From assembly GCA_945897805.1 (NCBI GenBank), contig CAMDFX010000005.1, positions 7,501 through 71,500 of the forward strand: a DNA stretch of 64,000 nt. The letters are read 5' to 3'. Both the position numbers and the translations under genes were made by a program. This stretch comes from Chryseobacterium gleum (lineage in GTDB: Bacteria > Bacteroidota > Bacteroidia > Flavobacteriales_D > Crocinitomicaceae). Positions 58,433 to 61,743 of this stretch are shown here, one piece after another. Position 1 is the first letter of the stretch. The number at the start of each line of letters is the position of its first letter. The notes beneath the pieces were generated by a model, which saw nothing but the letters and a program-made list of their open reading frames with translations, made no database searches and was not told where the DNA came from.

Positions 58433-58453
58433 TCATTTTTAAAAAAAATAAAG

Positions 58454-58487
58454 AAACCGCTTTTCATTTTGATGTTAAGCGGTTTTT
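58454..58487 (+). terminator. terminator after recQ
   Basis: AAACCGCTT/AAGCGGTTT stem, 14-base loop and a T-tail, 21 bases past the recQ stop. Confidence 0.8.
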
Positions 58488-58543: not shown

Positions 58544-59230
58544 ATGAAATTATTTATTATCAGTTTATTTTTACTAATCTCAAACGCTCGGCTATTTTCG
58601 CAAGAAATGGAGACTTTTGAAATTAACTTTCAACCAACTTTTCTATCAAAACAATTGAACATAAATCAGTTTTACCAAACAAATCAAAATGATAGTATTC
58701 AATTTACTACTTTCAAATTTTACATTTCAAACATTGCATTAATCAACCAAAATAAAATCGTCTGGAAAGTAACTCCTGAATTTTACTTAATTGATTTAGA
58801 AGACACCAATTCTTTAAAAATAAAAAGTTTAATTCCTCAAAAGCTCGAATTCGACCAACTATCTTTTGATTTGGGACTAGATAGTTTGACAAATGTTTCA
58901 GGCGCAATGGGCGGAGCACTTGATCCTACAAAAGGAATGTACTGGACATGGCAAAATGGCTATATTAACCTAAAACTCGAAGGAAATTGTAAGCTTTCTC
59001 CACAAGAAGAGAATGAATTTGTTTTTCATCTTGGTGGTTATCAAAGCCCTTTTAGCACGATTCAAAAAATATCTTTCAAAAGACAAAAAAGCGCCATATA
59101 TCAAATTGGAGTTGAATTAAATAATTGGATTTCGGAGATTGATTTTCAAAATAGCAAGTCAATCATGTCTCCCAGAAAAGAAGCGATTGAAATGTCGATT
59201 AAAGCAACAAAAATGTTTGATTTGAAATGA
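58544..59230 (+). CDS. MbnP-like copper-binding protein
   Basis: 228 residues. Signal peptide MKLFIISLFLLISNARLFSQ. The body shows the MbnP family layout: FKFYISNIALINQNKIVW, YLIDLEDTNS, LSFDLGLDSLTNVSGAMGGA and the hallmark LDPTKGMYWTWQNGYINLKL, with W134 and W136, then HLGGY near the C terminus. In characterised MbnP/MbnH pairs, a Trp of MbnP is oxidised to kynurenine by the diheme MbnH and the protein binds copper. The stop overlaps the start of the diheme gene by 4 bases, indicating coupling. Whether this protein binds copper is inferred. Confidence 0.78.
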   Translation: MKLFIISLFLLISNARLFSQEMETFEINFQPTFLSKQLNINQFYQTNQNDSIQFTTFKFYISNIALINQNKIVWKVTPEFYLIDLEDTNSLKIKSLIPQKLEFDQLSFDLGLDSLTNVSGAMGGALDPTKGMYWTWQNGYINLKLEGNCKLSPQEENEFVFHLGGYQSPFSTIQKISFKRQKSAIYQIGVELNNWISEIDFQNSKSIMSPRKEAIEMSIKATKMFDLK

Positions 59231-60234
59231 GATACTTGGCCTTTTTTCTCTCTGTTTGGGTGCTTTTATCATTTTTTGAGAAAGAGAAAAATTTGTTTTA
59301 TATCCCTAAAAATTGGCCTAAACCTGTTTATAATTTCAAGAATAATCCACTATCAAAAGAAAAAGTTTTTTTGGGAAGAAACCTCTTTTATGACCCGATT
59401 TTATCAAGAGATAATTCGATTTCGTGCGCCAGTTGTCATTCTCCATACAATGCTTTTACGCATGTCGACCACAATCTAAGTCATGGAATCGAAGACCGAA
59501 TTGGAACAAGAAATTCACCAACTTTAATGAATTTGGCTTGGCACAAATCATTTATGTGGGACGGCGCAATCAATCATTTAGACATGCAAGCTTTGTCGCC
59601 AATAAGTCATCCAGACGAAATGGATGAAAAAATTGAAAATGTGATTTTAAAAATAAATCATACTAAAAAATACAAAACGTTGTTTTTTAACGCTTTTGGA
59701 GACAGCACCGCCACTGGTGAAAAAGCGTTGAAAGCAATTTCTCAATTCATGCTTACTTTAATAAGTGCGAATTCAAAATATGATTTAGTAAAACAGCACA
59801 AAGCGCAATTTACTTCCCAAGAGCAAAATGGATATAAATTATTTCAAAAACATTGTGCTAGCTGTCACCAAGAACCGCTTTTTACCAATCTTAAATTTGA
59901 AAACAACGGATTGAAAATAGATCCAAAAATCAAAGATTGGGGAAGAATGAAAATAACAAATAATCCACAGGATTCACTGAAATTTAAAGTTCCCACTTTG
60001 CGAAATATTGAATTTTCATTTCCATATATGCACGATGGCAGATTCAAAAAACTGAATCAAATGTTGAATCATTATACCAATGAAGTTCAATATTCCCCTA
60101 CCCTGTCTCAAGCTTTAACAAAATCTATCAAGCTGACTTCCAATGAAAAAGTAGATGTTATTGCCTTTCTGTTGACCTTGTCTGATCGAGAATTTCTTTT
60201 CAATCAAGCGTACGGATTTCCTAAGGAAAAATAA
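59227..60234 (+). CDS. diheme cytochrome c peroxidase/MauG family enzyme (MbnH-like)
   Basis: 335 residues with an N-terminal export signal or anchor (YLAFFLSVWVLLSFF). Two heme c sites: C67-C70-H71 (SCASCHS) and C210-C213-H214 (HCASCHQ). Between them are RNSPTLMNLAWHKSFMWDGA and the typical NHLDMQALSPISHPDEM loop; PTLRNIEFSFPYMHDGRF carries a further candidate heme ligand (M268 or H269). The context (MbnP-like partner) points to MbnH, a protein-modifying diheme enzyme, rather than a hydrogen-peroxide scavenger. Confidence 0.9.
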   Translation: MRYLAFFLSVWVLLSFFEKEKNLFYIPKNWPKPVYNFKNNPLSKEKVFLGRNLFYDPILSRDNSISCASCHSPYNAFTHVDHNLSHGIEDRIGTRNSPTLMNLAWHKSFMWDGAINHLDMQALSPISHPDEMDEKIENVILKINHTKKYKTLFFNAFGDSTATGEKALKAISQFMLTLISANSKYDLVKQHKAQFTSQEQNGYKLFQKHCASCHQEPLFTNLKFENNGLKIDPKIKDWGRMKITNNPQDSLKFKVPTLRNIEFSFPYMHDGRFKKLNQMLNHYTNEVQYSPTLSQALTKSIKLTSNEKVDVIAFLLTLSDREFLFNQAYGFPKEK

Positions 60235-60304
60235 TTTTGAAGGAAAAGGTAAAATAAAACATCTAACAAAATAACAAAATAGATTAATACTTGAAAAAGA
60301 AAAA

Positions 60305-61684
60305 ATGCTTATGAAAAAAAATATCATTACAGCTTCGCTCCTTTTTGTGGGATTTTATGCCCATTCGCAAACAAATCCTGCAATTTTATCTTGGTTAAGA
60401 AATACTACGGGAACTTTAGGAAGACATTATGTTTCGGGTAATTCTACCGCAATAAATGATGCTGACTCAGTGAATGTAAAACACGTTTTATATTCTGCTA
60501 CAAATGTTTACATCAAAACAAACGGAATTCCTTCCTATGTGACTGGACCATTTCTTGACGGAAATCCTTCTTTTGCAACAACTCAAAATGCCATTTTTAA
60601 ACTTCCTTTAAATCCAACTCAAAATACGGGAACACCAACTGCCACAACAGGCGGAAATATTGGACTTTTTATAAACGGAGTTGCTTTGTTTGATTACCGG
60701 GATGGTGTGGCATGGAATACCACTACAGGCGCTTTGTGTGGAGGACCAGGAAATCCGCCTTGTCCAGGTGGACCAACTGCGACAATGTCTTGGAATAGAG
60801 ATGCAATACCTGCTGAGAAACTTGGTTTTGACTGTTCAAAAGGACATCCTGCAATGGGAAATTACCACCATCACCAAAATCCAAGTGCATTTAATTTAGA
60901 TTTAAATGTCATTTCAACGATTTGTAACTTATATGCCGCGGAAGGTTTGTATGCCATTGACAGCACACAACATTCTCCATTAATTGGATTTGCATATGAT
61001 GGATTTCCAATTTACGGTGCCTACGGATACAAAAATGCTGATGGAACAGGTGGTTTAACTAGAATTAAATCTGGATATCAATTAAGAAATATTACAACAA
61101 GAACAGTTAATGCTAATGGAACAGATGTCGCAGACGGACCAGCTGTTGGCACAACATACTTTTTGGGATATTTTAGAGAAGATTATGAATTTTTGACACA
61201 TCCAGGACAAGAAGATTATTTAGATGTACACAATGGTAGATTTTGTGTAACTCCAGAGTATCCAAACGGAATTTATTGCTACTTTACAACTGTTGATGCT
61301 GACTGGAATTCCTATTATCCGTATGCCGTTGGACCAACTTTTTACGGAAATGTGACGGCTTCAAAAGTTACAACGATTTCAGAACAAGTAACAGAATACA
61401 CAGCATCTACTTCTAGCATGAATGAAGTACTAGAAAATAATCAGATTAAAGTTATTCCAAATCCGGCGACTGATTTGGTTGCCATTCAACTTCTTGGATT
61501 GGCAAATTCTGATATTTTAATTGAATTATTGGATTTGACAGGACGAAAAATTCAAACTTCAACTATTTTACAAGGAAGTACAATTGCTTATTTTGATACA
61601 AGTAAACTTTATAATGGGGAGTACATTGTTAAAATATCAAATGGTGAATCTTTGATTTCAAAGAAATTGATGATTGTAAAATAA
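60305..61684 (+). CDS. YHYH domain protein with type IX sorting tail
   Basis: 459 residues (457 if the second ATG at 60311 is used, which gives the neater signal peptide KKNIITASLLFVGFYAHSQ). The YHYH-domain hallmarks are CSKGHPAMGNYHHHQNP (YHHH at 187-190) and LIGFAYDGFPIYGAYGYKNA; RNTTGTLGRHYVSGN opens the domain. Residues 385-459 are a type A T9SS sorting domain (IKVIPNPATDLVAIQLLGL, LLDLTGRKIQTS, YNGEYIVKISNG, LMIVK). So it is exported to the cell surface or medium. It sits 70 bases behind the diheme gene; a metal-related role is inferred from the His cluster and its neighbours. Confidence 0.88.
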   Translation: MLMKKNIITASLLFVGFYAHSQTNPAILSWLRNTTGTLGRHYVSGNSTAINDADSVNVKHVLYSATNVYIKTNGIPSYVTGPFLDGNPSFATTQNAIFKLPLNPTQNTGTPTATTGGNIGLFINGVALFDYRDGVAWNTTTGALCGGPGNPPCPGGPTATMSWNRDAIPAEKLGFDCSKGHPAMGNYHHHQNPSAFNLDLNVISTICNLYAAEGLYAIDSTQHSPLIGFAYDGFPIYGAYGYKNADGTGGLTRIKSGYQLRNITTRTVNANGTDVADGPAVGTTYFLGYFREDYEFLTHPGQEDYLDVHNGRFCVTPEYPNGIYCYFTTVDADWNSYYPYAVGPTFYGNVTASKVTTISEQVTEYTASTSSMNEVLENNQIKVIPNPATDLVAIQLLGLANSDILIELLDLTGRKIQTSTILQGSTIAYFDTSKLYNGEYIVKISNGESLISKKLMIVK

Positions 61685-61703
61685 TAAAAAAGTATAATTT
61701 TGT

Positions 61704-61743
61704 AAATCAAGTATTCATTCAGTTGGGTACTTGATTTTTTTTT
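61704..61743 (+). terminator. terminator after the YHYH gene
   Basis: AAATCAAGTA/TACTTGATTT stem with a 14-base loop and a T-run, ending the MbnP-MbnH-YHYH unit. Confidence 0.85.

Follow-up and report, generated by a model that had tools for sequence, protein, structure and literature searches.

MbnP and the diheme enzyme MbnH are a known protein pair. In MbnP from M. trichosporium, the first Trp of a WxW motif is reportedly converted to kynurenine, and copper is said to be bound by a His/Met/kynurenine site. In methanotrophs, mbnI and mbnR, genes for an extracytoplasmic function (ECF) sigma factor and its anti-sigma factor, lie near such pairs, according to the available parts of PMC3621798 and PMC9601215. 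CorA/CorB and MopE/SACCP are comparable; in the available part of PMC3912023, a copper protein at the cell surface contains kynurenine derived from Trp, and its gene is accompanied by one for a diheme protein resembling peroxidases. Here we analyse 64,000 nucleotides of Chryseobacterium gleum contig CAMDFX010000005.1 (hereafter, the window). The window encodes an MbnP-like protein, a diheme MbnH-like enzyme and a protein combining a YHYH domain with a type IX sorting tail. These three genes are almost certainly a real, conserved unit. On balance, we lean towards an ECF-switched Bacteroidota operon that would handle envelope and cell-surface copper.

Conservation of the three-gene unit

Open reading frames and Pfam profiles agree on the module recognised in a first-pass annotation, at window positions 58544-61684 (Table 1). 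As that annotation noted, the MbnP-like and diheme genes overlap by 4 bases; the shared sequence is ATGA. Its statement that YHYH follows at once was wrong. A gap of 70 bases, carrying a promoter-like motif, separates YHYH from the diheme gene.

We identified conserved gene neighbourhoods in two surveys. In the first, 149 related genomes, including the window's own, were searched with MbnP and PF14240. Stretches around selected matches were mapped. Loci L033-L105 contained 48 MbnP genes and we counted the 43 followed by 2.5 kb or more of sequence. YHYH was within 6 kb of 35/36 window-type MbnP genes and 0/7 of a longer paralogous type, for which just part of the matches was fetched. Seven of the 36 loci (L072, L073, L096-L100) came from following YHYH; without these, the count is 28/29. 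The sole window-type MbnP gene without YHYH, at L102, is broken by two in-frame TAA codons. The second survey used named genomes and an alignment of YHYH. The best 80 of 582 relatives were kept, so the sample leans to close relatives; 63 loci with 2.5 kb upstream were used and 17 dropped. Both MbnP and MbnH were within 4.5 kb of YHYH at 55 of the 63 loci. At the remainder, both genes were within 6 kb (L175), MbnH was found alone (L162) or neither gene was nearby (six loci). The two surveys are not independent, with at least six identical YHYH proteins common to both.

The outer flanks of the trio differ between loci. Gene order is also variable, with YHYH first in L061, L098-L100, L207 and L209. 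The exact 4-base MbnP/MbnH overlap occurs in 28 of 54 same-strand cases from the second survey, with starts set mechanically. Records in this survey are mostly metagenome assemblies of Flavobacteriales, Crocinitomicaceae, Saprospiraceae, Chitinophaga and others, with a few from Ignavibacteria and Kapaibacterium. The YHYH records include a named strain, Neolewinella persica DSM 23188. In an even draw across the phylum (E-value 1e-60), this YHYH type was present in 14/395 genomes, the window's included. Among 13 fresh loci from the draw, six have MbnP or MbnH inside the flank of ~1.5 kb; a further locus (L202) adjoins one of those six in the same genome.

These data bear on whether an ordinary MbnP/MbnH pair has YHYH next to it merely by chance. 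The six second-survey loci with neither gene nearby, and the scarcity of this YHYH type in the phylum, speak for chance. Linkage at 55/63 and 35/36 loci, amid different outer flanks, contradicts it, and we consider the idea extremely improbable. The first-pass annotation would have taken YHYH as probably coincidental had it not been retained beside the pair in relatives; it is retained, and the proposal survived this check.

Sequences at the borders of the trio were also inspected. The gene upstream is RecQ, according to Pfam, and is followed by a hairpin with a T-run. Given this hairpin after RecQ, the three genes appear to form a separate transcription unit. A dedicated terminator after YHYH had been proposed previously. 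The hairpin there, a stretch picked by eye, folds with z -4.7 and, like the one after RecQ, much more stably than shuffled sequences; a pattern scan of the region gave 1 site, compared to a mean of 1.8 in shuffled sequences, and so is not above chance. The scan did not list the hairpin after RecQ.

Table 1. Positions of genes, conserved residues and candidate regulatory elements in the window
Feature	Position	Strand	Details
MbnP-like gene	58544..59230	+	228 residues; PF20243; model matches 7l6g
Diheme MbnH-like gene	59227..60234	+	335 residues; PF03150; TIGR04039 best NCBIfam model; 6e1c best solved match
YHYH gene with type IX sorting tail	60305..61684	+	459 residues; PF14240 and PF18962
WxW motif M132-Y133-W134-T135-W136	58937..58951	+	W134 and W136 91/91; M132 90/91
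H162, candidate copper ligand	59027..59029	+	91/91 and 9/9 paralogs
M208, second Met candidate for copper site	59165..59167	+	81/91; paralogs mostly His
First heme motif C67-C70-H71	59425..59439	+	invariant, 35/35
Second heme motif C210-C213-H214	59854..59868	+	invariant, 35/35
Y283	60073..60075	+	35/35; aligns with Tyr of 6e1c and Met of peroxidases 1iqc and 3o5c
Candidate YHYH metal site D176, H181, H188, H190, H223, D232	60830..61000	+	53/53; 45/45 more divergent proteins
Type IX C-terminal sorting domain	61454..61675	+	PF18962, residues 384-457
ECF-type promoter-like motif GGAAA-N12-ACATCTAA	58496..58520	+	23 bases before MbnP start
Second copy of GGAAA-N12-ACATCTAA	60242..60266	+	38 bases before YHYH start
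Hairpin with T-run 3' of RecQ gene, upstream border of unit	58452..58487	+	fold z -4.3
Terminator-like hairpin 3' of YHYH	61704..61737	+	14 pairs, then T-run; fold z -4.7

Other arrangements of these genes were seen. In the window's genome, two more MbnP-like genes adjoin MbnH-like genes and lack a YHYH neighbour (L062 on contig G000:C7 and L063 on G000:C6); the latter is a weak MbnP match. A second YHYH context, lacking MbnP, is found at L084, L086, L087, L089, L090, L091 and L093. Here, a related protein of 433-536 residues follows YHYH and the one tested, from L093, carries a sorting tail. At L175 (3982-6685), the genes between MbnP and MbnH encode a DUF6702 protein and two further proteins with a YHYH domain, both partial. 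An in-frame TGA splits YHYH at L060; this locus and L102 are probable cases of decay.

Properties of the three proteins

The MbnP-like protein scores 150.3 bits against PF20243 (cut-off 27). Its predicted structure has a confidence (predicted local distance difference test) of 91. The only confident fold match is 7l6g, the M. trichosporium MbnP (Foldseek E-value 2.4e-10). Superposition on 7l6g gives a Z-score of 18.0 and a root-mean-square deviation of 2.8 for 206 aligned residues; the next entry has a Z-score of 4.4. A sequence search for solved relatives found none. We aligned 91 MbnP proteins of the window's type with nine paralogs. Residues W134, W136, G139, Y140, K144 and H162 are unvarying in all 91 and all nine. 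Hence, the two tryptophans placed at 134 and 136 by the first-pass annotation are correctly positioned and, when checked, conserved. In the MbnP tree, the paralogs cluster, though support is weak (0.55), and under midpoint rooting the window's type then forms no clade. At L073 (8680-10191), a single frame of 504 residues fuses an MbnP domain to an endonuclease/exonuclease/phosphatase domain.

H162 is the only His in the window's MbnP. By analogy, H162, M132/M208 and the WxW motif would suit a His/Met/kynurenine site, not the two-His site of CorA. As the first Trp of WxW, W134 is the better candidate substrate. Briefly, MbnH would oxidise W134 to kynurenine, a step that we regard as probable from the likeness to known pairs. 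A Cu(I) site would then arise from the kynurenine together with H162 and either M132 or M208.

The diheme protein scores 183 bits with PF03150, CCP_MauG (cut-off 25.6). NCBIfam ranks the MbnH model TIGR04039 best (201.4 bits) and MauG next (181.3 bits). When solved structures were searched with an MbnH profile, the best match was 6e1c. This entry is titled 'Di-heme enzyme', which we take to be MbnH. The Tyr at the position of Y283 is presumably a heme ligand. Judged by alignment, Y283 is the MauG/MbnH-type Tyr, located where peroxidases have Met.

The YHYH protein scores 195.1 bits against PF14240 (cut-off 25). Its type IX sorting tail is identified by both PF18962 (44.9 bits, cut-off 27) and TIGR04183 (37.9 bits, cut-off 23). 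Described previously as His-rich, the protein has 10 His among 459 residues, a few of them invariant, and the description does not hold. E171, C177 and C207 are conserved in 53/53 sequences, like the candidate metal site. In the wider set of 45, E171 holds and both Cys do not. For phage YHYH proteins, the available part of PMC7824862 predicts that a His triad and an Asp form the zinc site of a hydrolase. In BFVD, the structural neighbours of our YHYH model are cyanophage YHYH proteins. Sequence searches for solved relatives of YHYH found sorting-tail and Ig-type stretches, plus one chance-level match (E-value 0.4). Fold searches matched no hydrolase fold; the matches were filled by the sorting tail, leaving the domain itself hardly tested. 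Model confidence is low for residues 151-220 (46-66 per ten residues). We found no paper joining YHYH to MbnP or MbnH in the literature searched. We favour a role for YHYH as an exported metal-binding partner over one as a hydrolase.

YHYH could instead be a second substrate of MbnH, with one enzyme modifying Trp or Tyr in two clients. W137, W163 and many Tyr of YHYH are kept in 53/53 sequences, and YHYH neighbours MbnH at most loci, which speaks for this reading. Other gene orders, with YHYH first in L061 and L098-L100, argue against it. Furthermore, full-length YHYH with an intact His cluster occurs without MbnP/MbnH at 6/63 loci and at several first-survey loci, and MbnH paired with paralogous MbnP does without YHYH (0/7). 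We consider a second substrate very unlikely.

Candidate sigma-factor control and probable link to copper

The link to a sigma factor is new and lies outside the earlier account of the trio. Beside MbnP or YHYH, 31 loci of L033-L105 encode a protein of ~150 residues with one predicted membrane segment, read by eye. We refer to this as the Spy/CnrX-like protein. Usually, it is preceded by a sigma factor, clearly ECF by Pfam, and a small one-segment protein with no family match. At L047 and L071, this triple is 3' of YHYH. In the second survey, the Spy/CnrX-like protein is present in 28, and the ECF factor in 26, of 53 usable trio loci. A search of the window's genome with PF13801 (Metal_resist) gave no match.

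The window's operon is without a triple; its genome carries one on another contig. The ECF factor of this triple tops the nine ECF factors found in the genome when scored with a profile of operon-linked factors (188.7 bits, others 59-138). In the ECF tree, row L067 groups with three other ECF factors of the window's genome; by row order, this is the second, unlinked ECF factor of L067. Three genomes within the genus retain the unlinked triple (L190, on contig G000:C3 of the window's genome, L191 and L192), even G004, where no YHYH was found. Because G004 keeps the triple without YHYH, the triple probably has other targets too.

A shared motif suggests a tie between the unlinked triple and the operon. 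The regulator would be operon-linked in certain genera, whereas that of the window would have it at a separate site. The motif, GGAAA-N12-ACATCTAA, was derived by eye from the stretches before MbnP and YHYH; the third copy was not used. The window's genome (3.19 Mb) has three exact copies: before MbnP, before YHYH and at the ECF triple. Genome G001 has two exact copies (at the triple and before MbnP) and its YHYH copy differs by one change. G004 has one, at the triple; G002 and G003 have none. A reversed control motif has one exact copy across all five genomes.

We rejected this strict motif as a general signal. Outside the window, it was found in 2/105 stretches before MbnP (L033 and L106, the same locus) and 0/133 before YHYH. 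Other groups of loci use different upstream halves. Before YHYH (n=128), the 7-mers CGTCTAA (23 occurrences, 0.68 expected), CGAAGGA (21, 1.25 expected) and CCGCAAG (17, 0.74 expected) are enriched. Before ECF genes, CGCAAGT is found in 10/53 stretches (0.29 expected). A two-part ECF-type pattern composed from these 7-mers precedes YHYH in 38/127 cases, compared to 4/781 for other genes; this pattern was built on the same data, with exact duplicates removed for five families. Frequencies elsewhere are 6/53 for ECF, 4/98 for MbnP, 0/103 for MbnH and 0/56 for the Spy/CnrX-like protein. By a looser rule, the CGCAAG form precedes both ECF and YHYH at 9/52 loci, or seven without two duplicate pairs. 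Different forms were paired at none of the 52, and one side alone was recognised at 24. Sites of sigma-70 type are not clearly in excess (19, compared to 13.9 in shuffles, standard deviation 3.3). We conclude that sigma-factor control of the operon is quite likely.

Neighbouring genes were identified by Pfam at chosen loci only, so the following counts are not frequencies. Multicopper oxidases with sorting tails are encoded between MbnH and YHYH at L115, L132, L135 and L165. A gene of this kind follows YHYH at L151 and, without MbnP, precedes it at L148. Of the models, CueO is the one that the L115 oxidase resembles most (375 bits, cut-off 525). The first-pass annotation suggested that the trio could be a surface copper-acquisition or protein-oxidation system. 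Exported multicopper oxidases at these six related loci, and the MbnP fold, give the copper link outside support; the suggestion holds in part. Overall, a copper role for the operon is likely.

Two side observations concern these neighbours. A protein of ~200 residues with a CNHC stretch is encoded 3' of YHYH in the oxidase-bearing loci L115, L132, L135 and L165; that of L115, the sole one tested, belongs to the AhpC/TSA family. At L072 (7091-7819), a bacteriorhodopsin-family gene is located between MbnH and YHYH.

The copper link bears on two further alternatives. In the first, YHYH is a surface metal-dependent hydrolase and the operon a general envelope-stress or surface-repair response, with copper incidental. 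Consistent with this, a zinc site and hydrolase role were predicted for the His triad and Asp (available part of PMC7824862), the Spy/CnrX-like protein matches Spy with a better E-value than NccX, and YHYH occurs with ECF and the Spy/CnrX-like protein, without MbnP, at L070, L076 and L078. The strong, specific linkage to MbnP and MbnH, and the recurrence of exported multicopper oxidases, make this reading unlikely. In the second alternative, the operon serves copper or metal tolerance, not acquisition. MbnP and YHYH would trap Cu(I), to be oxidised by CueO-like enzymes where present. The closeness of the exported L115 oxidase to CueO, and sensor-type regulation with a Spy/CnrX-like protein, fit such a role. 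Conversely, CorA, a similarly modified copper protein, is copper-repressed and tied to acquisition (available part of PMC3912023), and sequence cannot distinguish uptake from tolerance. We regard tolerance as a real possibility that falls short of probable.

Our preferred explanation remains an ECF-switched operon for copper handling, which as a whole we judge slightly on the probable side. The Spy/CnrX-like protein would sense a metal or envelope signal and free the sigma factor. The freed sigma factor would transcribe MbnP-MbnH and, from the second promoter, additional YHYH. YHYH would be an exported metal-binding protein, probably for copper, working with MbnP. A bolder version, which we consider rather doubtful, is an ECF-run assembly line for surface copper sites. 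MbnP would be matured by MbnH, type IX-exported YHYH from the second promoter would take the copper and, in some species, a CueO-like oxidase would be added. If true, YHYH would define a class of exported copper proteins not described before.

Several observations weigh against the preferred explanation, which is drawn from sequence and models. The MbnP-like and diheme proteins miss the equivalog cut-offs of TIGR04052 (44.1 of 140) and TIGR04039 (362.85), respectively. Hence, the window's MbnP belongs to the broader family and falls outside the TIGR04052 equivalog. Likeness of the Spy/CnrX-like protein to Spy (E-value 0.03) and NccX (E-value 1.6) is weak, and no Pfam or NCBIfam family scored above its cut-off. 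The third motif copy is inside the last ECF codons, ~8 bases before the start of the one-segment protein, an odd place for a promoter. No motif was seen before the ECF gene of the same triple. With one mismatch allowed, there are 11/5/8/12/11 motif copies, compared to 9/3/13/11/9 for the control (G000/G002/G003/G001/G004). Since this is no commoner than the control, only exact matches carry weight. Out of sample, the two-part pattern was found in just 2/13 cases, and of the 52 loci that carry ECF as well as YHYH, 19 have no recognised motif at either gene. Finally, oxidases are present at few loci only; a rhodopsin (L072) and a sulfatase (L143), with no evident copper role, occupy the same place.

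Comparison with known systems

A close described system is the methanotroph MbnP/MbnH pair (7l6g and 6e1c). Common features are the MbnP fold, the WxW motif, a diheme partner whose Tyr replaces the Met of peroxidases, and overlapping genes. A single-His site is possible in both. However, the window's MbnP is smaller and below the TIGR04052 cut-off. The unit is also without methanobactin genes or a TonB-type transporter, has YHYH as a fixed third gene, and differs in its regulators. CorA differs in that its site has two His (available part of PMC3912023), whereas the window's MbnP contains just a single His. As far as the fold search shows, with only MbnP matched, the folds are unrelated.

Phage YHYH proteins share the domain, and the conserved His and Asp, with the window's YHYH. 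In the available part of PMC7824862, they are often fused to tail or baseplate proteins; the window's YHYH is stand-alone, exported and encoded in an MbnP/MbnH operon. The domain, found in the literature searched only as a predicted phage hydrolase, gains a cellular context, and the exported protein a first likely job in the cell. CnrYXH and NccYXH have a comparable row of ECF sigma factor, small one-helix protein and one-helix periplasmic protein of ~150 residues. Their targets differ, and the Spy/CnrX-like protein, with the weak match to NccX noted above, would be a putative metal sensor. We conclude that what is new here is the component added to a known pair, and how that pair is probably regulated. 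For MbnP/MbnH pairs outside methanotrophs, YHYH is a fixed third partner; a candidate regulator and promoter come with it, and a single strain would serve to test all of them.

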